Assembly (NCBI GenBank): GCA_003054665.1
Contig: QAYY01000003.1
Location: forward strand, 310,001 to 374,000
Length of the DNA stretch: 64,000 bases
Direction: 5' to 3'
Origin: Opitutaceae bacterium EW11
Lineage (GTDB): Bacteria; Verrucomicrobiota; Verrucomicrobiia; Opitutales; Opitutaceae
Below, one piece after another: positions 10,227 through 20,697 of this stretch (the first letter of the stretch is position 1; every line of letters begins with the position of its first letter). Both the position numbers and the translations under genes were made by a program. A model generated the notes under the pieces. That model saw nothing but the letters and a program-made list of their open reading frames with translations, was not told where the DNA came from and did not search any database.

Positions 10227-10790
10227 ATGGGCGTTCCGGACGTCAACCTTTACCTTGTCGGCTTCATGGGCACCGGCAAAACCACGATTGGCCGCGCGGT
10301 GGCTCAAAAGCTGGGCTTCGAGCTCCTCGACAGCGATGCGGAGATCGAACGGCTGAAAGGGAAAACGATACCGGACATCTTCGCTCAAGAAGGGGAACCT
10401 GCTTTCCGTCAGTTGGAGCGAACGTTCATTGAGGCAGGGCACCCTGCGCGTCATGCCGTCGTCGCATGCGGTGGGGGTCTGGTGGTGCAGCCCGGGATGC
10501 TCGATCTGCTTAAGTCCAAGGGGGTTGTGGTCTGCCTGCACGCTTCGCTCGAGACGGTGCTCAAGCGCACGCAGGGGAATCGCAATCGGCCATTGTTGAA
10601 CGTCGAAGATCCCTTCGAGCGTATCCGCGCACTCTATACAGCTCGCGAGCCCATCTATCGTCGATCAGGAACGCTGGTCTTGACCGACGGGCGCCCGCTT
10701 CACGACGTTGTGGCTCACGTGCTCAGAATTTACCGCCGAGAGGCCGCGGACTTCGCGCACGCCTCTCCAATTGAGAAGGCCACGCCCTAA
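10227..10790 (+). CDS. aroK: Shikimate kinase
   Basis: Cytosolic kinase (187 residues) phosphorylating shikimate in the chorismate pathway. Walker A is GFMGTGKTTIGRAVA, followed by the shikimate-binding DSDAEIE (Asp-x-Asp), the Arg contact region FRQLERTFIE, the GGG motif VACGGGLVV, and the lid RNRPLL. The ATG at 10227 is chosen because the nucleotide-binding strand LYLVGFMGTGK starts seven residues later; the frame is open upstream to 10074 but with unlikely Arg/Gly-rich content. The last base of its stop overlaps the ATG of queG, so translation is probably coupled. Confidence 0.94.
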   Translation: MGVPDVNLYLVGFMGTGKTTIGRAVAQKLGFELLDSDAEIERLKGKTIPDIFAQEGEPAFRQLERTFIEAGHPARHAVVACGGGLVVQPGMLDLLKSKGVVVCLHASLETVLKRTQGNRNRPLLNVEDPFERIRALYTAREPIYRRSGTLVLTDGRPLHDVVAHVLRIYRREAADFAHASPIEKATP

Positions 10791-11947
10791 TGGATCGAGA
10801 AGCGCTCCGAAGCCGAATCAAGGAATTGGGCTTTGATGTCGTTCGGTTTGCGCGGCTTGATCAGCCAAGCGACGGCATGGTTGGGGCACTGCACACATGG
10901 CTCCGGGCCGGGTGCCAGGCGGACATGGAGTGGATCGGCCGCAACGCCGATAAACGGACGGATCCTACGAGGGTCCTCACGGGGGCTCGGTCTGCGATCT
11001 TGTTGGGTGTCAACTATTGGCCCGCTTCAGAAGCTCCCATGGGAAGCGCGAAATGGGCTCGGTATGCCCAGTACCGTGACTACCACGAGTCGCTCAAACC
11101 GGGCCTGATGGCCATTGGACGACTGCTTGAGGAGTGGGCGGGCTTAACGTCCGAGCAGTACCGTTACTACGTCGACACCGGACCCGTGCTCGAGAGAGGC
11201 TGGGCAGAGCGCGCAGGCGTGGGGTTCATCGGGAAAAACGCGATGCTGATCTCGCGGGAGTATGGGAATTGGCTCTTCCTCGCCGAGGTTCTGACGGTTC
11301 TCGACATCGAGGCTGACGCTCCGCTGCCGGGGCTCGCGTCCAGGATGGGTGGGGCCGAGAAGGGCCGGATAGGGCTTCATTGCGGTAACTGCACTCGTTG
11401 CATCGACGCTTGTCCGACTCAGGCGATTTGCTCGCCGGGGGTGGTGGACGCGCGGCGTTGCGTGTCGTACCAAACCATTGAAAACAAAGGCGTCATCCCG
11501 CGAGAGCTCAGGGCCGGGATTGGGGCGCGGATCTATGGTTGCGATGTTTGCCTGGAAGTCTGCCCCTGGAATCGTTTCGCCCAAGAGAGCCGCCGAGTGT
11601 TGGTGGACGCACGTTACGACATCGCGCAGATCTCGCTCGCCGAGCTTTTGGCGATGACGCCAGAGAGGTTCGCCGAAGTTTTCAGAAAGACCCCAATGAA
11701 GCGGACCAAACTCACGGGTCTGCTTCGCAATTCTTGTATCGTTGCGGGAAATACGCGTGCCGCGGATTGTCTTGATGCAGTGGTGGCCCTGGCTGCCCAT
11801 CCGTCCGAGATGGTCCGAGCTCATGCGGTCTGGGCCGTTTTCAGGATGGTGGACGCCGCGACTGCGGCGGGGTTGCTCGATGCTGCCCGCTCGGTGGAAC
11901 AGAATCCTGTGGTCCTGGCTGAGTATGCAGCGGAGTCCGGAGGCTGA
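10790..11947 (+). CDS. queG: Epoxyqueuosine reductase QueG
   Basis: Cobalamin- and iron-sulfur-dependent enzyme (385 residues) for the last step of queuosine formation in tRNA. The N-terminal flavin/nitroreductase-like cobalamin domain includes YVDTGPVLERGWAERAGVGF. Two 4Fe-4S clusters are bound by HCGNCTRCIDACPT and CDVCLEVCPWN. The C-terminal part has a HEAT-like repeat region (residues about 290-385), as in QueG. It overlaps aroK by one base. It ends 14 bp from the convergent thioesterase with no clear terminator between them. Confidence 0.95.
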   Translation: MDREALRSRIKELGFDVVRFARLDQPSDGMVGALHTWLRAGCQADMEWIGRNADKRTDPTRVLTGARSAILLGVNYWPASEAPMGSAKWARYAQYRDYHESLKPGLMAIGRLLEEWAGLTSEQYRYYVDTGPVLERGWAERAGVGFIGKNAMLISREYGNWLFLAEVLTVLDIEADAPLPGLASRMGGAEKGRIGLHCGNCTRCIDACPTQAICSPGVVDARRCVSYQTIENKGVIPRELRAGIGARIYGCDVCLEVCPWNRFAQESRRVLVDARYDIAQISLAELLAMTPERFAEVFRKTPMKRTKLTGLLRNSCIVAGNTRAADCLDAVVALAAHPSEMVRAHAVWAVFRMVDAATAAGLLDAARSVEQNPVVLAEYAAESGG

Positions 11948-11961
11948 GTGCAACCTCCCCG

Positions 11962-12369
11962 CTAAACCATCGGAAACAGCTGGTCCATCTTTTCGGCGAA
12001 TGCGCGGGGAGGGCGTACCGGTCGGCCTTCGCGGTCGATGAATGCGTGCACCGTCTGAGCCGTGGCTAGAAGCACGTCACTGCGGAGAACCTGATAGTTG
12101 AGCCGAATGCGGAGAATTGGCTTCTCCGTCATGGTGGAAACGATCCGCAATGTGTCGTCGTAGAGCGCAGGCCTGAGATACTTCACGTTCACTTCCAGCA
12201 CGGGAAGGAAATAGCCTTGGGCCTCCAAATCGCGATAGGGGAGTCCGTGCTGTTTGAGCAACGCGGTGCGTCCAACTTCGAACCACGGCAGGTAGCTACC
12301 GTGATACACCACCCCCATCATGTCCGTTTCGGCGTAGCGGACTGTGATCTGAGATTCGGACTGGATCAT
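11962..12369 (-). CDS. YbgC/FadM-type acyl-CoA thioesterase (hotdog fold)
   Basis: Hotdog-fold thioesterase of 135 residues. The active-site region is VRYAETDMMGVVYHGSYLPW, with the 4HBT-type Asp (ETDMMG) and the Tyr/His-x-x-Y segment. The rest (LEVNVKYLRPALYDDTLRI and the C-terminal MDQLFP) fits the YbgC/FadM subfamily that hydrolyses short- to long-chain acyl-CoA or acyl-ACP. Its ATG overlaps the TGA of the upstream glycosyltransferase by four bases, so the two are translationally coupled. That coupling and the nearby ketosynthase and ACP genes suggest it releases or edits acyl chains for a lipid product; this is inference. Confidence 0.9.
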   Translation of the reverse strand: MIQSESQITVRYAETDMMGVVYHGSYLPWFEVGRTALLKQHGLPYRDLEAQGYFLPVLEVNVKYLRPALYDDTLRIVSTMTEKPILRIRLNYQVLRSDVLLATAQTVHAFIDREGRPVRPPRAFAEKMDQLFPMV

Positions 12370-13541
12370 GCCACCGGCAGGGAGGCCTCAAGCGTCGCCG
12401 TTGTGTTCGGCTCGATCCCGAAAAGCACGCTGGCCGACTCCTTCCAGTCGTTGCGCAAGGCCCAATCGCGACCTTCCTTGCCGAGTCTCTGGCGTAACGA
12501 GCGGTCGCTGATCAGTCGTTCAAATGCGGCTGTAAGCTGTGCGGGGTGATCGGGCGGCACGAGAAGGCCGGTGACACCATCTTTCACTGCTTCTGGCACA
12601 CCGCCGACTTGATGTGCGACCACGGGCAACCCGTGCGCGGATGCCTCCAAATACACGAGACCGAAACCTTCCACGCTGTTGTGGTAGTCGATGCTCGTCA
12701 TCGCGAAAATATCCGCTCGATCATAGATCGTATCGAGTTCGTCGTCAGGTATATTGCCAAAAAACCGCACACAGACGTCGGAGCCTGCCGCAGAGGCACG
12801 AAGACGTTGTTCGTATCCACCTTTGCTTTGCCCGCCGACAATCCAGTACTCGACCTGCTGACGAAACTTGGGAGCGAGCGCCTGGAGCGCTTCGAGTGTC
12901 ACCATCTGGCCTTTGCGCGGATGCAGCCGACCGACGGTGAGCACGATCACCTTATCCCTCGTTCCCGCAGCTGTAGTCGGAACGACGGCAAAATCGGAGC
13001 GAAGGGCGCCTGGCGTGAGGAACGTTTTTCCGGCCGCTTCGGGAAAACGCGTGCAGAGAAGGCGGTGGGTGTAATGGGTGAGTGTGCTGATTCGCGAGGC
13101 GTTCTCAATGAGCCGCGTGCCCAGTCGCCGGGTGAACGGATTGCCGTAAAACTTGAGGATCTCTGAACCGTGAAAAGTCAGTACCAGTCGCTTCGGCCGA
13201 AACGCTTTGGAATGCTGGAGCAACATCATCGCAAGCATCGGTCCCGGCTCAGGCAGGTAGACGGTCGCATACCGCAGCCGGCGCCGCTGTTTGATCAGCT
13301 GAAGGGCCAGACCGAACTGGCAGGTGAAGTCGTGTGTGCCTTTTACCGGTAGCCGGCGCATGCGAAACGGCCAGTCCTTCTCCGCTTCACTCGGTGCCGA
13401 CTGTGCCCACACCTCTACGTCCAAACCGAGGCCGACAGACGCCTTCGCGATTTCCTCCGTGAACGTGGCGATCCCTCCGCGCTTCGGGTAAAACTCGTGG
13501 GTGATGAGGAAGACAGATTTCAGCGTTGACGCTGTGCTCAT
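12366..13541 (-). CDS. GT4-family glycosyltransferase
   Basis: GT-B glycosyltransferase of 391 residues using a nucleotide-sugar donor. The N-terminal Rossmann domain opens with FLITHEFYPKRGGIATFTEE, the acceptor-side glycine-rich start typical of GT4 enzymes. The C-terminal domain has VLTVGRLHPRKGQ, the DRADIFAMTS segment and the donor-binding motif with acidic residues EGFGLVYLEASAHGLPVV. The ATG at 13541 (MSTASTLKSV) is chosen; the open frame extends far upstream (to 14261) but only as a shadow of the divergent ACP-dehydratase gene. It is coupled to the thioesterase and diverges from the lipid-synthesis run, which suggests a shared role in a glycolipid. Cytosolic or membrane-associated; no transmembrane helix. 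Confidence 0.9.
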   Translation of the reverse strand: MSTASTLKSVFLITHEFYPKRGGIATFTEEIAKASVGLGLDVEVWAQSAPSEAEKDWPFRMRRLPVKGTHDFTCQFGLALQLIKQRRRLRYATVYLPEPGPMLAMMLLQHSKAFRPKRLVLTFHGSEILKFYGNPFTRRLGTRLIENASRISTLTHYTHRLLCTRFPEAAGKTFLTPGALRSDFAVVPTTAAGTRDKVIVLTVGRLHPRKGQMVTLEALQALAPKFRQQVEYWIVGGQSKGGYEQRLRASAAGSDVCVRFFGNIPDDELDTIYDRADIFAMTSIDYHNSVEGFGLVYLEASAHGLPVVAHQVGGVPEAVKDGVTGLLVPPDHPAQLTAAFERLISDRSLRQRLGKEGRDWALRNDWKESASVLFGIEPNTTATLEASLPVA

Positions 13542-13811
13542 TTCAGAAGTTGCGAACACTAGCAAAGGTGTGAAATAGGGAGTCTTCGAAGAGTTGCAAG
13601 CGCCGGCAGCATCCCGTCCATTCAGGCGGGTTCGCTCGTCGGTTGGGGGACACAAAAAATCCATGAAAAACGCACCGGCCGGCCGTGGGAACATCGCAGC
13701 ATTTCGGCGGACTTGTGCCCGACATATCGGCATATCCCTGTCCCTCCGGTGGCTGTTCCGGGAAGAATAGCGTTTACATTCAAAAAGCGGACAACTTACT
13801 ACGCACCAATC
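13542..13811 (+). promoter_or_regulatory. Divergent intergenic region between GT4 and ACP-dehydratase genes
   Basis: This 270-bp gap must hold promoters for both directions. The part just upstream of the rightward gene is AT-richer than its surroundings. It has TTTACA at about 13774, but I see no good -10 at standard spacing, and no clear Shine-Dalgarno before the ATG at 13812. No coding frame of note lies within it. Confidence 0.35.
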
Positions 13812-14795
13812 ATGGCAGATGCAGTTCAGAATGGCCACGGGCCCCGTGCTCAACTTCTGGCCGCGGCGAAACCCTTTACCGCGGAGGAGGAGTCTGCGCT
13901 GCGCGAGGCACTCAAACGCTGCTCGGCAGCGACCCTGGAGGCTGCGATCCAATTTCGTAAGTCCCACGACGTTGCCCAAGTGCCCGTCGTGGTGATTGGC
14001 GTCATCGAGCGTTTCGTCGAACCCAGTCTCCGTCCCAAGCTCAAGGAGGCCGACGATGAGCTGCGCCTCGTCGAGGATCTCGGCATCGATTCGCTGACCA
14101 TGATGGAGATCGTGATCCTGGTGGAGGACGTCCTCCAGATGCAGATCAACAATGACGAGCTCCGGAATCTTCGCACGGTGGGTGACGTCAAGACCTTCAT
14201 CGATTGCAAAGTTCGTGGCCTCCCGCAGCCGAAGCCGACGAAGTTCATGCCGGTCGAGCAAATCGTTGCCGTCATGCCCATCCAGCCTCCGTTCCTATTT
14301 CTGAACGAGGCGTCGATCAACGGTCACGGAGCCCAGGGCAAATACAAGATCAGCGGCCAGGAGTTTTTCCTTCAGGGACACTTCAAGGACAACCCGGTGA
14401 TGCCTGCGTCCATGATGCTGGAGGCGCTCGGCCAACTCGCGGTGCTTTCGCTGATCGAAGGTTTGGTTCCGAGCGAGGATTCTCGTCAGATCGATCCGAA
14501 GACCATCTTTTTCACTTCGTGCGAAGGTGTTCGTTGTCACCGCATGTGCAAGCCAGGCGAAGTGCTGACGCTAGCGATCAAACCGAAGCGCGCGAAAATG
14601 CCGCTGGCGACCTTTGAAGGAAGCATTCGCGTCGGCCAGGAAAAGGCCGTGATCGCCGAAGAGCTCACATTGACTTTTGGATACGCCGAATCTGCTGCCG
14701 CCCCCGAGACTACCTCAAGCGATGCTGCGGAAGAGCCGAAGCGCTCTGCGTCTCCTGTCCCGCCGACGCCTCTTGCTGCGGCGATGAATGCCTGA
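13812..14795 (+). CDS. Fused acyl carrier protein - FabZ/FabA-like 3-hydroxyacyl-ACP dehydratase
   Basis: Single-chain fusion of 327 residues. After a unique N-terminal segment (about 1-60), an acyl carrier domain spans about residues 60-135; its phosphopantetheine serine is Ser94 in EDLGIDSLTMMEIVI. A hotdog dehydratase domain follows at about 145-300: PIQPPFLFLNEASI, then the catalytic His190 and Glu204 in QGHFKDNPVMPASMMLEALGQ, 14 residues apart as in FabZ. The C-terminal 30 residues are a Ser/Pro/Glu-rich tail. The ATG at 13812 is preferred over an upstream ATG at 13713, which would add a Pro/Arg-rich stretch. The gene begins a rightward run with a ketosynthase and an SDR, so it should carry and dehydrate 3-hydroxyacyl chains. 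Fusion of ACP and dehydratase in this order is not standard in primary fatty acid synthesis. Confidence 0.88.
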   Translation: MADAVQNGHGPRAQLLAAAKPFTAEEESALREALKRCSAATLEAAIQFRKSHDVAQVPVVVIGVIERFVEPSLRPKLKEADDELRLVEDLGIDSLTMMEIVILVEDVLQMQINNDELRNLRTVGDVKTFIDCKVRGLPQPKPTKFMPVEQIVAVMPIQPPFLFLNEASINGHGAQGKYKISGQEFFLQGHFKDNPVMPASMMLEALGQLAVLSLIEGLVPSEDSRQIDPKTIFFTSCEGVRCHRMCKPGEVLTLAIKPKRAKMPLATFEGSIRVGQEKAVIAEELTLTFGYAESAAAPETTSSDAAEEPKRSASPVPPTPLAAAMNA

Positions 14796-14955
14796 TTTGG
14801 CTTCGGCTGGCTGAAGGTTAGCGGTTGGGTTCAGGCGGGCCAGGGAATCTCGTCTCCCGCGTTGACCCCGCGTGCTGGGCGGGCCTTGATTGTGGCTTCA
14901 CTTTTTGCTGTCCAGCCTTCCCCGGCTGGGTCGTATTCTCTTGGTTACGTGATTC

Positions 14956-16218
14956 ATGCCCAAAGTCTTCATTACAGGCCTCGGATTCATCACTAGCATC
15001 GGCAACGATGTCGCTTCAGTTGCCCGGAGTCTGCGAGAGCTGCGACACGGCATGGAACTCTACCCTCCGTTCCAGAAACCGGAGATTCCGGTCAAGGTGG
15101 CGGCGCCGGTGAAGGGGTTTCAAACGGACTCCACGGACTCGGAGGACTGGACGTATCCGGAAAAATATACAGTCAAACGTGAGCTGCTCCGCGGAATGGG
15201 GCCTAATACCCTGTACGCCTATTGTGCGATGCTTCAGGCGGTTGAAGACGCGAAGCTGGGCGAAGCGGATGTCTCGAATGACCTGACGGGGCTCTATGCA
15301 TCTTCAGGCGGATCGCCGTTCTTGATGGGGCATATGTTGAATCGGATGCACAACCAAGGGGTGATGCGCTGTTCTCCCTTAGGCATTGTCGCGTCGATCG
15401 CGGGCACGGTGAACTTCAACTTGGTGGCCCATTTCAAAATCAAGGGTGCCTCGACTGGATTCTCGTCGGCGTGCGCATCATCGGCGCATGGCGTTGGGTT
15501 TGCCTGCGACGAGATCATGCTTGGACGCCAAAAGCGCATGTTCGTCGTCGGTGCCGAAGATGGAAACGTCGACAGTATCCTTCCCTTTGCCGGAATGCGG
15601 GCTCTTTCCCTTCAGGCAGACCCTGAGATTGCCTCTCGGCCGTTCGATGTCGGACGCGATGGTTTTGTCGGGACCGGCGGCGCAACGGTGGTCGTGCTGG
15701 AAAGCGAGGACGAGGTCGCTCGCCGCGGTGTTAAGCCGTATTGCGAAGTTGCTGGATGGGGCCAGGCATCCGACGGCCACAACGTCGCCATTTCGCACCC
15801 TGAGGGCACAGGACTGCGCAAGGCAGTCGAACGCGCGCTGACGAGTTCCAGAATCAGCCCGGAAGAGGTGGGCTACGTGAATGCCCACGCGACCTCCACG
15901 CAGATTGGCGACATCTCAGAGGCCAAGGCGATTCGGGCCGTCTTTGGCCCCAGCCTGTCTCGTCCCCTGGTGAGTTCGACCAAGGCCCTGACCGGACACG
16001 GATTGTCGCTCGCTGGGGCGATGGAAACCGGCTTCTGCGCGCTCGGGTTGCGGGACGGCTTTGTTCCGGGCTCCGCGCATATCCGCAATCTCGATCCGGC
16101 GTGTGCCGATCTGAATATCCCGCTTACGACGCAGGAGAAGAAGGTCGATGTGGTTATGAACAATAGCAGCGGTTTTGGGGGAGCCAACGTGTGTTTGGTT
16201 CTCAAGCGCGTCGGCTGA
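14956..16218 (+). CDS. FabF-like beta-ketoacyl-ACP synthase
   Basis: Condensing enzyme of 420 residues with the thiolase fold. The Cys-His-His triad is complete: Cys173 in GASTGFSSACASSAHG, His311 in YVNAHATSTQIGD and His348 in SSTKALTGHGLSLAGA, with the usual Lys343. The C-terminal NNSSGFGGANVCLVLK is the standard KAS II ending. It should extend acyl-ACP by two carbons from malonyl-ACP. It differs from textbook FabF in a longer N-terminal loop (about residues 36-80). It lies between the ACP-dehydratase fusion (160 bp upstream) and an SDR (9 bp downstream), so it probably works on the ACP of the fusion protein. A role in primary fatty acid synthesis cannot be excluded. Confidence 0.92.
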   Translation: MPKVFITGLGFITSIGNDVASVARSLRELRHGMELYPPFQKPEIPVKVAAPVKGFQTDSTDSEDWTYPEKYTVKRELLRGMGPNTLYAYCAMLQAVEDAKLGEADVSNDLTGLYASSGGSPFLMGHMLNRMHNQGVMRCSPLGIVASIAGTVNFNLVAHFKIKGASTGFSSACASSAHGVGFACDEIMLGRQKRMFVVGAEDGNVDSILPFAGMRALSLQADPEIASRPFDVGRDGFVGTGGATVVVLESEDEVARRGVKPYCEVAGWGQASDGHNVAISHPEGTGLRKAVERALTSSRISPEEVGYVNAHATSTQIGDISEAKAIRAVFGPSLSRPLVSSTKALTGHGLSLAGAMETGFCALGLRDGFVPGSAHIRNLDPACADLNIPLTTQEKKVDVVMNNSSGFGGANVCLVLKRVG

Positions 16219-16227
16219 GCTCTTGTT

Positions 16228-17067
16228 GTGCCGGCGCTTTCCCAGCGATTCAGGACGGCTTTGGTGACGGGCGCGTCCGGTGGCCTCGGCCTCGCGTTTG
16301 TGGAAATGCTGCTGTCGGAGGGCGTCGCAGTATGGGGAACGGCGCGGAGTCCTGAGCGGCTGCAGGTGCTTTCGGCACGGCCTGGATTCACCCCCTTGGT
16401 TCTGGAGTTGAATGATCCGGAATCCGTTGAGCGCGCTTTCCTCGCCGCGCCAGGCGACACGGGGCACGGGTTCGATCTGGTGGTAAACAATGCCGGCTAC
16501 GGCGTGTTCGGGGCGTTTGCCGCTGCACCGTTCTCCACTTGGCGCGAACAGTTGCAGGCCAATCTGATTGGAACCGCTCATGTGGCGCACGCAGCGATGC
16601 GTCGGATGAGGGCCAAAAATCGCGGCTGCCTGGTGAACGTTTCGTCCATGGCCGTCGAATATCCGCTTCCGTTCATGAGCGCGTACAACATCGCGAAAAG
16701 CGGTTTGGCTGCGTTGAGCGAGAGTTTGGTCTTTGAATCTCGTGGCAGCGCTGTCACGGTCATCGACTTCCGGCCGGGGGATTACCGGACGGCTTTCAAC
16801 CAAGCAATGCAAGTGACCTCTTCGGCCGTGGATCCGGCCACCGACCCGCGGCTACCGGCTGCGTGGCGATCACTGGAAGCGAATCTCGCTCTCGCGCCGA
16901 AGCCCGAGCGCGCCGCGGCGGATCTTCGGAGGGCTCTTCTGGCGGACCGATCGGGTACTGTCTACTCCGGCGGCATTGTTCAAACACGGCTTGCGCCGTT
17001 GTTCGCGCGTCTGGCTCCTGCCCGTCTGCGCCGCGCTGTTGCTGCGCGCTATTTTGGAGCGGCCTGA
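16228..17067 (+). CDS. Short-chain dehydrogenase/reductase (ketoreductase candidate)
   Basis: Classical SDR of 279 residues with a GTG start. The Rossmann cofactor loop is TGASGGLGLAF, NNAGYGVFG is the second motif, and the catalytic set is Ser140 (LVNVSSMA), Tyr153 and Lys157 (SAYNIAKSG). An Arg after the second strand (TARSPERL) suggests NADPH. It is closer to the broad oxidoreductase/3-ketosphinganine-reductase type of SDR than to FabG. From its place right after a ketosynthase, it is likely the 3-ketoacyl reductase of this pathway. It lies 9 bp after the ketosynthase and 3 bp before the next gene, so it is part of one transcript. Confidence 0.85.
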   Translation: MPALSQRFRTALVTGASGGLGLAFVEMLLSEGVAVWGTARSPERLQVLSARPGFTPLVLELNDPESVERAFLAAPGDTGHGFDLVVNNAGYGVFGAFAAAPFSTWREQLQANLIGTAHVAHAAMRRMRAKNRGCLVNVSSMAVEYPLPFMSAYNIAKSGLAALSESLVFESRGSAVTVIDFRPGDYRTAFNQAMQVTSSAVDPATDPRLPAAWRSLEANLALAPKPERAAADLRRALLADRSGTVYSGGIVQTRLAPLFARLAPARLRRAVAARYFGAA

Positions 17068-17070
17068 GCT

Positions 17071-18324
17071 GTGGCGAAAATCCGTATCCTGGTTCTCACT
17101 TCAAGCACGGGAGGAGGGCACGACGCGCGGGCACAGGCTTTCGCGGAATGGTGCTTCCAGCTGTATCGGCACAAGGTCGACGTCCGCATCGAGCAGATGC
17201 TGGAAAAGTCGTCCGTTGTGAACCGCAGCGGCGTCAGCTTCTATAACTGGATACAGCGGAATCTCCCGATCCTCCACACCGGTTTCTACACGATTGTCGA
17301 GGCGCTGAGCCTGCTGAACCGGCGTACGGTGCTGCTCGGACGCGGCTACTACCACAAGGTGATCGAGGACTATAAGCCCCACCTGATCTTTAGCGTTCAC
17401 GACTGTCTGAACCGCGGCTACTTCCAGCTCGCACGCCGGCTACTCGGAGCCAACAACGTCCGGTGCGCCACGTACTGTGGCGAATTCTCCGGCGGCTGGG
17501 GATATTCGATCAATTGGATCGAACCGACGGTCGACCTCTACATTTCCCGCACTGCGACGGCGCGCGATTACGCCGTGAAGAAGGGTATCCCGGTAGACCG
17601 CACGCTGGTCCGAGGCCACCTCATGCGTCCGCGTTCTCACATCGAGGTCATCGGCCGCGACGATATAGGATCCTTCCGCGTGAAACAGCTCGGCCTGAAA
17701 CCCGATCTTTTCACAGTCTTTCTCGCCACTGGTGGAAACGGCGCCAACAACCATTTTGCGCTGCTGCCGGCCCTGCACAAACACGCCGACAAGTGCCAGG
17801 TGATCATCATCTGCGGGAAAAACAAAGAGACGTACAACGAGCTCATCCACTGGCGTGCCAATAACCCCGAGCTGAATTGCTACGTCGAAGGCTACTCGGA
17901 GATCATGCATCTGCACATGCAGGCGAGCGACGCGATCGTGACCCGGGGCGGAACCACAACGTGCGCCAAGGCCCTGAATTTCCGGTGTCCGATCATCTTT
18001 AATGCCTTCGGCGGAATCATGCCCCAGGAGCGTTTGACCTGGAAGTTTTTCCACAACGGTGCCCAGTCGGAGAAGATCGAGAGCGGAGCGGATTTCGGAC
18101 GATTGATCGACGATTGGATGTCGTATCCCGAGCACTACACGGCGTATCGCGACCGCTTCAACAGCCTGCGATACGAAGAGGATCCCACGATCGTGATCGA
18201 GGAATTGGTCAATCTCGCGGGCGATGCGGCCGGTGTGTCGCTGAAGAAGCTGCCTTTCCCGCCTCGGAATGGAAACGGCAACGGGTCCGGCACGCCGTTC
18301 CTGCCGCGCCCTCTGGCGTCATAG
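17071..18324 (+). CDS. MGDG-synthase-like glycosyltransferase (GT28 type)
   Basis: GT-B glycosyltransferase of 417 residues with a GTG start. The N-terminal part fits the monogalactosyldiacylglycerol-synthase domain: ILVLTSSTGGGHDARAQAFAEW is the diagnostic glycine-rich opening (acceptor lipid side). The C-terminal half resembles the MurG/GT28 donor domain, with FLATGGNGANNHFALL, the VEGYSEIMHLHMQASDAIV segment and TRGGTTTCAKALNFRCPII. Related enzymes add galactose or glucose to diacylglycerol, or GlcNAc to lipid acceptors. The C-terminal tail is Asn/Gly/Pro-rich. It follows the SDR by 3 bp, directly tying glycosyl transfer to the acyl-synthesis genes. The real acceptor and sugar are unknown. 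Confidence 0.87.
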   Translation: MAKIRILVLTSSTGGGHDARAQAFAEWCFQLYRHKVDVRIEQMLEKSSVVNRSGVSFYNWIQRNLPILHTGFYTIVEALSLLNRRTVLLGRGYYHKVIEDYKPHLIFSVHDCLNRGYFQLARRLLGANNVRCATYCGEFSGGWGYSINWIEPTVDLYISRTATARDYAVKKGIPVDRTLVRGHLMRPRSHIEVIGRDDIGSFRVKQLGLKPDLFTVFLATGGNGANNHFALLPALHKHADKCQVIIICGKNKETYNELIHWRANNPELNCYVEGYSEIMHLHMQASDAIVTRGGTTTCAKALNFRCPIIFNAFGGIMPQERLTWKFFHNGAQSEKIESGADFGRLIDDWMSYPEHYTAYRDRFNSLRYEEDPTIVIEELVNLAGDAAGVSLKKLPFPPRNGNGNGSGTPFLPRPLAS

Positions 18325-18418
18325 TCTTTGCCCGTCCTGGTCTGGCATCCCAGTTCGGCGGATCAGGACCCGGGTCTACACGTCAAATTGCTTGGCGGGC
18401 GGCAACGTAGCGCGCAGG

Positions 18419-19648
18419 GTGAACCGGATTTCCGCCTTGGCACGACGCCCCCTCACCATCGCGTATTTGTTCACCACGTTTCCGAAGTCGACGGAGACGT
18501 TCCTCCAGCGCGAGATCATCGCGATGCGGCAATCAGGCGCCGAACTGCGATTGTATTCACTTTGGGGAGGCGGCGGCGAGTTTTGCGGCCTGCCGGTCCA
18601 CACGTTCAACAAATGGCTCCTGCTGGAGCTCTTCTGGATCATTCCGTGGGTGGGGTTGACGCGTTGGGACGTGCTCGGGGAGCTGCTCCACGGCCTCGCT
18701 ACGCGAAAACCGCCGGGCTGGCTGAACTTTTGGGAGAACATGCTGGGTGCGGGTTTCGCAGGGTGTTTCTATCACGCGTTCCGCCGAAATCCGCCGACCC
18801 TTGTCCACGCGGCTTGGAGCGGTGCGCCGGCGACGGCGGCGTATCTTCTCTGGCGCATGAACGGCCATCCTTACTCGGCCGCGGCACACGCCTATGATAT
18901 TTACGAACACGGAGGAGACTGGTGGCTTCGGGAGAAGCTAGCCCCGGCGCACTTCGTTCATACCTCGACCGAGATGGGCCGGGCGACCCTCGTTGAATAC
19001 GGGGTGCCGAAAGAAAAGGTGCGCTGCATCCGCCGGGGCCTGGCCTCTTTCCCCGCTGTCAAACCGCTGCGCGCATCCCGGCAGCCGCTTCGCATCGTCT
19101 GTGTGGCGCGGCTGGTGGAAAAGAAAGGGCTACGACATCAGATCGGAATCTATGCGCGGCTGAAGCGAGACGGATTCCCATTCGAAGCGCGCATCGTGGG
19201 CGACGGGCCGATGAGAGCGGATCTTCAACGTTTGTCGGAAAAACACGGAGTCGACGGGCAGGTCACGTTTATGGGCCATCTGCCGTTGGAGGGCGTCTGG
19301 GAGCAGCTCTCGTGGGCCGACGTGCTGGTTCACACCGGCGTTGTTGCTCGAAGCGGGGATCGGGACGGTTTGCCGAACGTTATTCCCGAAGCCATGGCTG
19401 CGGGCGTAATGGTCGTGACGTCGCCCACCGCAGCGACGACTGAAGCGATTCACGACCGCGCCACAGGGCTTGTCGCTGACGTTTCGGACGAAGATGCCTG
19501 GCTCCAGGCTCTGCGAACGCTTGCCCACGACGATTGCTTGGCCGAGCAGCTTCGGGGCGAGGCACGCCGGTGGGTGGAGAGCAATTTCGACGCGCACAAG
19601 AACGCGGCGAGGTTGTTCGAGGAGTTTCAAAAGGCGGTCGGCGCATGA
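18419..19648 (+). CDS. GT4-family glycosyltransferase
   Basis: GT-B glycosyltransferase of about 409 residues. The N-terminal domain begins IAYLFTTFPKSTETFLQREI, typical of colanic-acid/exopolysaccharide transferases (WcaL/AmsK-like). The C-terminal donor domain shows RIVCVARLVEKKGLRHQI, GDGPMRADLQ, FMGHLPLEGVWEQL and the acidic motif DGLPNVIPEAMAAGVMVV. The GTG at 18419 is chosen because the conserved fold begins 14 residues later; the frame is open back into the previous gene, and a TTG near 18392 is an alternative. Its TGA overlaps the ATG of the next transferase (ATGA), so the two are coupled. Likely acts in the cytosol on a lipid-linked or lipid acceptor. Confidence 0.85.
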   Translation: MNRISALARRPLTIAYLFTTFPKSTETFLQREIIAMRQSGAELRLYSLWGGGGEFCGLPVHTFNKWLLLELFWIIPWVGLTRWDVLGELLHGLATRKPPGWLNFWENMLGAGFAGCFYHAFRRNPPTLVHAAWSGAPATAAYLLWRMNGHPYSAAAHAYDIYEHGGDWWLREKLAPAHFVHTSTEMGRATLVEYGVPKEKVRCIRRGLASFPAVKPLRASRQPLRIVCVARLVEKKGLRHQIGIYARLKRDGFPFEARIVGDGPMRADLQRLSEKHGVDGQVTFMGHLPLEGVWEQLSWADVLVHTGVVARSGDRDGLPNVIPEAMAAGVMVVTSPTAATTEAIHDRATGLVADVSDEDAWLQALRTLAHDDCLAEQLRGEARRWVESNFDAHKNAARLFEEFQKAVGA

Positions 19649-20697
19649 TCTATCTCGACGTCACGAAAAGCGCCGAGTCTCGGCATCAATCTGGGCTGAT
19701 GCGGGTGAGCGGTCGTCTGCGAGAGGAACTTGGCGACACCTGCCAGCCGGTCATCTGGCGGGGAGGTTGGATCGATCAACGCTCCGGCCGACCTGCAGAA
19801 CTGAGCCGCGTCGACTGGCTTTTGACTCCCGAGCTTTTCTCGGAGTCGGAGCGTCCGGGCTGGTGGTCGTTTCTGAAGAATCCGAGTTGTCGGACTGCGG
19901 CGATTTTCCACGACGCGATCCCGCTGAGGTTTCCCAGCGTCACCTGGCCGCAGAGTGTCGCCCGGCAACCGGAGTATATGAAGATGCTGGCGTGGTTCGA
20001 CCGCGTACTCGCCGTCTCTCGCGCCAGCATGGACGACCTGGTGCACTTCTGGAAGTGGCAGGGGACAGAGCCGCGGGGGACCGTGACGACGCTTCAGCTC
20101 GGTTCGGATTTTGTGCGCCAACCCCGGCCTGCGGCCGAGAATCCTACCCCGAGCGACATAGCGACCTTTCTTTGCCTGGGGATCGTGGAGCCGCGGAAGC
20201 ATCAGGAATTTCTCGTGGATGTGGCCGAAGAGCTTCTGCGGCGGAAGCTGGCGTTTCGAATGGAGTTCATCGGTCGAGTGAATCCGCATTTCGGCGGAGC
20301 GATCGCGCGGCGTCTGAAGTCGTTTGGCCGGTCGCATCCGGAGGTTCGCCATCGGACGAGAGTCTCGGACGAAGAACTGCTGGGGCTCTGGAGGCGGAGC
20401 CGCGCGACCCTGTTTCCAACCCTCGCCGAGGGATGCGGCCTTCCGCTTCTCGAATCGCTATGGCTCGGCGTGCCTTGTGTCTGCAGCGATCTTCCCGTCC
20501 TGCGGGAGAACGCGGATGGAGGAGGCTGCTCCGCGTTGCCCAACACGGATGTGATGGCGTGGGCTTCGGAGCTTCAGCGGCTGATTTCCGACGACGGTCA
20601 TTGTGCCGGACTCCGCAAGGAGGCACTTCAACGGCCTCTGCCGACCTGGGGGAAGACGGCGGAGGCCGTTCGCGAAATCCTGGAAGTCGTGGGTTGA
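19645..20697 (+). CDS. GT4-family glycosyltransferase (mannosyltransferase-like)
   Basis: Glycosyltransferase of 350 residues. The chosen ATG at 19645 overlaps the preceding stop by four bases; an upstream open frame to 19534 only shadows the neighbour. Visible features are an acceptor-side AIFHDAIPLRFPSVTW, DRVLAVSRASMDDL, the hinge FLCLGIVEPRKHQEFL, and the donor-site LFPTLAEGCGLPLLESLWLG, with the E-x7-E pattern of retaining GT4 enzymes. It is the last gene of the lipid/glycan run and ends 76 bp before alanine dehydrogenase. The acceptor is probably the product of the two preceding transferases, but this is inference from order only. Confidence 0.85.
   Translation: MIYLDVTKSAESRHQSGLMRVSGRLREELGDTCQPVIWRGGWIDQRSGRPAELSRVDWLLTPELFSESERPGWWSFLKNPSCRTAAIFHDAIPLRFPSVTWPQSVARQPEYMKMLAWFDRVLAVSRASMDDLVHFWKWQGTEPRGTVTTLQLGSDFVRQPRPAAENPTPSDIATFLCLGIVEPRKHQEFLVDVAEELLRRKLAFRMEFIGRVNPHFGGAIARRLKSFGRSHPEVRHRTRVSDEELLGLWRRSRATLFPTLAEGCGLPLLESLWLGVPCVCSDLPVLRENADGGGCSALPNTDVMAWASELQRLISDDGHCAGLRKEALQRPLPTWGKTAEAVREILEVVG

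Follow-up and report, generated by a model that had tools for sequence, protein, structure and literature searches.

A conserved gene block of Opitutaceae probably encodes the larger part of a glycosphingolipid pathway, including a type II module for chain building

Which lipid is made by a gene block in which acyl-chain enzymes stand beside a series of glycosyltransferases? Such a block lies in the genome of Opitutaceae bacterium EW11 (G000, 6.4 Mb), within a window of 64,000 nucleotides that is the whole stretch of DNA analysed (G000:C27:310001-374000). All eight genes of the block are present at window positions 11962-20697 as intact open reading frames, six on the (+) strand and a GT4 glycosyltransferase with a hotdog thioesterase on the (-) strand, as the first-pass annotation had placed them, and the gene classes named there were matched by profile assignment with Pfam and NCBIfam. 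The genes are as follows.

11962..12369 (-), 135 aa: hotdog thioesterase (TE), 4HBT, YbgC/FadM type
12366..13541 (-), 391 aa: GT4 glycosyltransferase (GTa), divergent from ACP-DH
13812..14795 (+), 327 aa: fusion of ACP and FabZ-type dehydratase (ACP-DH)
14956..16218 (+), 420 aa: FabB-like beta-ketoacyl-ACP synthase (KS)
16228..17067 (+), 279 aa: reductase (SDR)
17071..18324 (+), 417 aa: MGDG-synthase-like lipid glycosyltransferase (GT28)
18419..19648 (+), 409 aa: GT4 glycosyltransferase, EpsE/WcaL-like (GTb)
19645..20697 (+), 350 aa: GT4-like glycosyltransferase (GTc)

From ACP-DH through GTc, the junctions on the (+) strand measure 160, 9, 3, 94 and -4 bp, the last being an ATGA overlap between GTb and GTc; TE and GTa overlap by 4 bp on the (-) strand. 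An earlier description of most junctions as gaps of 3-9 bp or ATGA overlaps fits three of the five rightward junctions, the gaps of 160 and 94 bp falling outside it. A promoter scan of the block found no informative promoter, and terminator-like sites are near background level, with three between ACP-DH and KS. Shikimate kinase and QueG-like genes at window positions 10230-11947, without an obvious lipid link, form the left flank in most Opitutaceae.

Gene order is nearly fixed across 80 named loci from Opitutaceae and Verrucomicrobiota, with TE-GTa divergent from ACP-DH, which is followed by KS, SDR, GT28, GTb and GTc. GTa and ACP-DH are divergent neighbours in 77 of these loci, ACP-DH precedes KS in 76, KS precedes SDR in 58, SDR precedes GT28 in 57, GT28 precedes GTb in 46 and GTb precedes GTc in 43; the counts are affected by contig ends, many contigs stopping inside the block. 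TE adjoins GTa in 75/80. This gene order is not chance, and the glycosyltransferases travel with the acyl genes in relatives, a linkage on which the first-pass annotation had staked its reading.

The acyl genes are distinct from those of primary fatty acid synthesis. In the fusion protein the ACP spans approximately residues 22-135 and the dehydratase approximately residues 145-290, with PP-binding and FabA-like Pfam matches; profile search matched both FabZ (E 3.5e-22) and ACPs. The predicted structure of the fusion (mean pLDDT 82) matches FabZ folds, with a TM of about 0.9 of the target, and the dehydratase is FabZ-like, not FabA-like, by family profiles as well as by structure match. Dehydratase His190 and Glu204 are invariant in orthologues (124/124), as is ACP Ser94 (120/120). 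Where FabZ has PGV, the dehydratase has PAS in 122 of 124 orthologues. A lone ACP elsewhere in the genome (G000:C7:93561-93935, L081) is 60% identical to the fusion's ACP domain; its neighbourhood, judged by eye, includes a sigma factor and a DUF692-like gene.

The intact Cys-His-His triad that had been reported for the KS was confirmed as Cys173-His311-His348, and in the orthologue alignment the cysteine and first histidine are conserved in 111/111 sequences and the second histidine in 110/110. Block KSs form a clade of their own (100/100), which includes a paralogue on contig C11 and is sister to E. coli FabB (99/94). The clade lies outside the ApeO and ApeR branches (CFT073 sequences) and apart from the genome's own FabF. 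That housekeeping FabF is a separate gene on contig C1, grouping with E. coli FabF and scoring 637 bits with the FabF profile (cut-off, 494), whereas the window KS scores 321 bits. The genome holds three FabA/FabZ genes, six ACPs and five KS genes in all; its best FabZ lies in a 518-aa frame on C1, judged by size to be LpxC-FabZ, and is separate from the block dehydratase. A role in primary type II fatty acid synthesis was therefore rejected. As the first-pass annotation had supposed, KS and dehydratase are not the genome's only FabF and FabZ, and the acyl and glycosyl genes form a conserved block apart from primary fatty acid synthesis. The FabB-like C11 paralogue has 53% identity with the window KS and is paired with a free ACP; this pair (G000:C11:698717-700264, L082) has no accompanying dehydratase or glycosyltransferases. 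KS matches of 52-54% also occur at G010:C62 and G051:C74.

When neighbouring genes of unassigned family were clustered, an alpha-oxoamine synthase family emerged that borders the block on its right in 14 of the loci retrieved first. Against solved structures, this enzyme scored 331 bits with Sphingobacterium SPT (3a2b), 208 with cysteate acyltransferase and 197 with E. coli-type Kbl. It groups in the tree with both crystallised SPTs, from Sphingobacterium and Sphingomonas (99/94), apart from Kbl, BioF and the Kbl-like enzyme of G000 itself. Across 56 copies the family keeps its PLP lysine and two histidines without exception; it scores below the NCBIfam cut-offs for SPT (388 of 640 bits). The substrates that SPT joins are serine and an acyl chain carried on CoA or ACP. 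In relatives its gene lies beyond GTc in convergent orientation, at 27 of the 43 loci holding GTc and with a median gap of 33 bp, and a further glycosyltransferase follows SPT in 25 of those 27. In G000 an intact orthologue (398 aa, 78% identical) is encoded at C5:124934-126127, unlinked to the block, which is on C27. Since the SPT partner lies outside the window, the first-pass annotation missed the pointer to sphingolipids.

A sample of 388 genomes from the phylum was scored for ACP-DH and SPT. The former occurs in 49 and the latter in 45: 44 genomes have both, five have ACP-DH only (G063, G067, G068, G219 and G282), one has SPT only (G214) and 338 have neither. The two are thus present or absent together in 382/388 genomes (Fisher p 3.5e-51, a value that is overstated because related genomes are not independent). 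Outside the family, ACP-DH is found in 15 genomes and SPT in 11, ten having both (p 5e-15), and two genomes of the same family in the sample, G043 and G314, lack both. G214 is not a real exception: alongside its SPT are GTb, SDR, KS and an ACP that lacks the dehydratase. G057, which had seemed to be without SPT in the relatives sample, carries a fragment of SPT where a contig begins. This co-occurrence, with the invariance of ACP Ser94, ties a specialised ACP genetically to SPT.

Linkage extends beyond the order. In the class relatives G311 and G147, GTa, ACP-DH, KS, SDR, a GT28, GTb and SPT lie within about 17 kb, and in relatives at the level of order and class GTb remains near ACP-DH, SPT or both. 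GTa adjoins ACP-DH also in the class relatives L213, L214 and L216, at which TE was not found.

We propose that, in Opitutaceae and related Verrucomicrobiota, the block supplies the larger part of a pathway to glycosphingolipids, including a type II module of its own for building the acyl chain; SPT, in G000, is encoded elsewhere in the genome. We give this reading a probability of roughly 0.68. What the sequences establish is the classes of the enzymes, the invariance of catalytic residues, the order of the genes and their linkage to and co-occurrence with SPT; from these we infer step order, substrates and product. Judged by its family, KS would elongate an acyl chain on the dedicated fused ACP, and the fused FabZ-type domain would dehydrate the ACP-bound chain. 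SPT would condense the acyl-ACP with serine, or with an amino acid like it, the fused ACP serving as carrier. SDR would reduce the 3-keto group, and a separate enzyme outside the assigned set would N-acylate the base. GT28 would attach the first sugar to the lipid, with extension of the sugar chain by GTb, GTc and possibly GTa.

The proposed assignment of SDR as 3-ketosphinganine reductase fits its linkage to SPT in relatives and its position beside SPT-linked glycosyltransferases in L229. The enzyme is intact here (Pfam adh_short, 3e-33) and its Ser-Tyr-Lys residues are invariant in 78/78 orthologues. Its score with the KdsR model is 103 bits, below the cut-off of 400, and it is no closer to ketosphinganine reductase than to other SDRs; it could alternatively be a beta-ketoacyl reductase. 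At the position of the usual catalytic Asn, which the window SDR retains, Met or Leu stands in most SDR orthologues. For the N-acylation step, a Pfam search of G000 found no match to FemAB_like (PF04339), the family to which bCerS belongs, and four unspecific matches to PF13480.

GT28 is the proposed catalyst of the first sugar transfer onto lipid. It matches Pfam GT28_C (4e-8), and in profile search it is closest to plant MGDG synthase 1 (E 1.5e-32) and processive diacylglycerol glucosyltransferase (2.7e-30), consistent with a membrane glycolipid as the likely product, one of the possibilities that had been raised for this locus. In class and order relatives a glutamate-semialdehyde-aminomutase-like aminotransferase, recognised by eye, adjoins the GT28 of the SPT block (L214:8005-9267(-) and L218:12250-14276(+)), accompanied at L218 by a 268-aa ORF. 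GTa matches Pfam Glycos_transf_1 (1e-37). TE, which matches Pfam 4HBT_2 (7e-18) and scores above the cut-off of NCBIfam TIGR00051, is possibly an acyl-thioester hydrolase and is the least certain member of the block.

A sphingosine-type base made without a desaturase is a tentative and rather unlikely further proposal. KS, a ketoreductase and the fused dehydratase would generate trans-2-enoyl-ACP, from which SPT, with serine, would form a base that already bears the 4,5-double bond; the glycosyltransferases would convert this base into an oligoglycosyl sphingolipid. Such a trans-2-enoyl route to a Delta-4 base would be oxygen-independent. The block of G214 is without the dehydratase, so this route would not be needed in every lineage.

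It is improbable, in our estimate, that ACP-DH and KS instead form an accessory fatty-acid module, which like FabA/FabB would supply general lipids or lipid A with unsaturated or hydroxylated chains and would have become linked to the sphingolipid and glycosyltransferase genes without feeding SPT. The position of KS as sister to FabB would suit such a module, but the dehydratase resembles FabZ rather than FabA, and the ACP is dedicated and fused. ACP, dehydratase and KS do outlast SPT in several genomes: genus g68 (G067, G219 and G282), G063 and G070, which are mostly also without SDR and glycosyltransferases, G068, which retains glycosyltransferases too, and G010, which retains ACP-DH and a KS. 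Hence, these acyl genes may also serve another purpose. A Kdo-transferase-like gene, recognised by eye, follows the dehydratase-KS pair of G063 (L073:10000-11280(+)) and hints at use in lipid A. Conversely, some SPT genomes are without a linked KS. Eight genomes of the order have ACP-DH followed by GTb with no KS between; in seven of these a KS relative (50-58% identity) is encoded at another place, and G049 has none. Orthology of these unlinked relatives is unproven because some may be of a second KS type, as on C11. Set against these cases is the concordance of ACP-DH and SPT across the phylum sample.

Less probable again is a glycosyl-diacylglycerol, or another glycolipid with a special acyl chain, alongside a separate amino-ketone made by the oxoamine synthase. 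The resemblance of GT28 to diacylglycerol glycosyltransferases would be expected of such a pathway, SDR is generic, and sequence does not reveal the acceptors of the glycosyltransferases. The arrangement in G047 nevertheless argues for a sphingolipid, since its block is split into AroK-QueG-TE-GTa-ACP-DH-KS at L058 and SDR-GT28-GTb-GTc-SPT at L229, placing SDR and three glycosyltransferases beside SPT and away from ACP-DH and KS. SPT and the block moreover share presence and absence.

The aryl-polyene-like or other polyene product suggested by the first-pass annotation is very improbable, and membership of that class was rejected: the E. coli CFT073 aryl polyene cluster (PMC8253772) likewise has a type II KS, dehydratase, ketoreductase-like SDR, ACP, thioesterase and glycosyltransferase, but the block is without a KS/chain-length-factor (CLF) pair, ApeR-type KS, acyl-ACP ligase, second KS, MMPL exporter and LolA-like gene, its KS belongs to another branch, and it is tied to SPT by co-occurrence.

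The glycosphingolipid reading can be compared with characterised bacterial systems. SPT of Rhodobacteria prefers a specialised ACP (PMC9386255), and the aasR, cerR, acpR, spt and cerS genes of Caulobacter crescentus (PMC9386255, PMC11324152) share with the present system an SPT-type oxoamine synthase, a dedicated ACP and a reductase. The present block differs in that its ACP shares a polypeptide with a FabZ-type dehydratase and is accompanied by a FabB-like KS; its reductase belongs to the classical SDRs, and the block itself includes glycosyltransferases. No FemAB_like N-acyltransferase was found in G000. The acyl-ACP synthetase AasR is absent from the block, from beside the G000 SPT and from the SPT neighbourhoods examined in relatives. 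In Pseudomonas, sphingolipids are made by an oxoamine synthase with SPT activity and an iterative polyketide synthase (PMC12134224). This system, SgaAB of Pseudomonas fluorescens MYb115, likewise combines chain-building ketosynthase chemistry with such an oxoamine synthase; SgaA is an iterative type I enzyme, whereas KS, ACP-DH and SDR are separate small type II proteins accompanied by glycosyltransferases. Bacterial ceramides are glycosylated by GT4 enzymes, namely Caulobacter Sgt1/Sgt2 and the alpha-galactosylceramide synthase of Bacteroides fragilis (PMC6445935, PMC9692976). The block too contains GT4 enzymes, but its proposed first transferase is the MGDG-synthase-like GT28, for which a ceramide acceptor is predicted.

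Spt-like genes have been counted in 22 Verrucomicrobiota MAGs from the Black Sea (PMC11334938), and the phylum has thus been listed among possible sphingolipid producers. In the open-licence literature we found no chemical report of sphingolipids in Opitutaceae and nothing direct on sphingolipids of Verrucomicrobia or Opitutaceae or on a dehydratase route to sphingosine, nor did the literature searched hold published pathway genes beyond SPT for Verrucomicrobiota. We did not find the block, its link to SPT or the feed from ACP-dehydratase and KS described.

Sphingolipids are now suspected across many bacterial phyla, and the block gives candidate genes for building their chains, for reduction and for glycosylation. 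It points to the possibility that a dedicated type II ketosynthase and ACP-dehydratase, rather than an acyl-ACP synthetase, can feed SPT, and with it the origin of double bonds in the sphingoid bases of bacteria could be tested in Opitutaceae that grow in culture.
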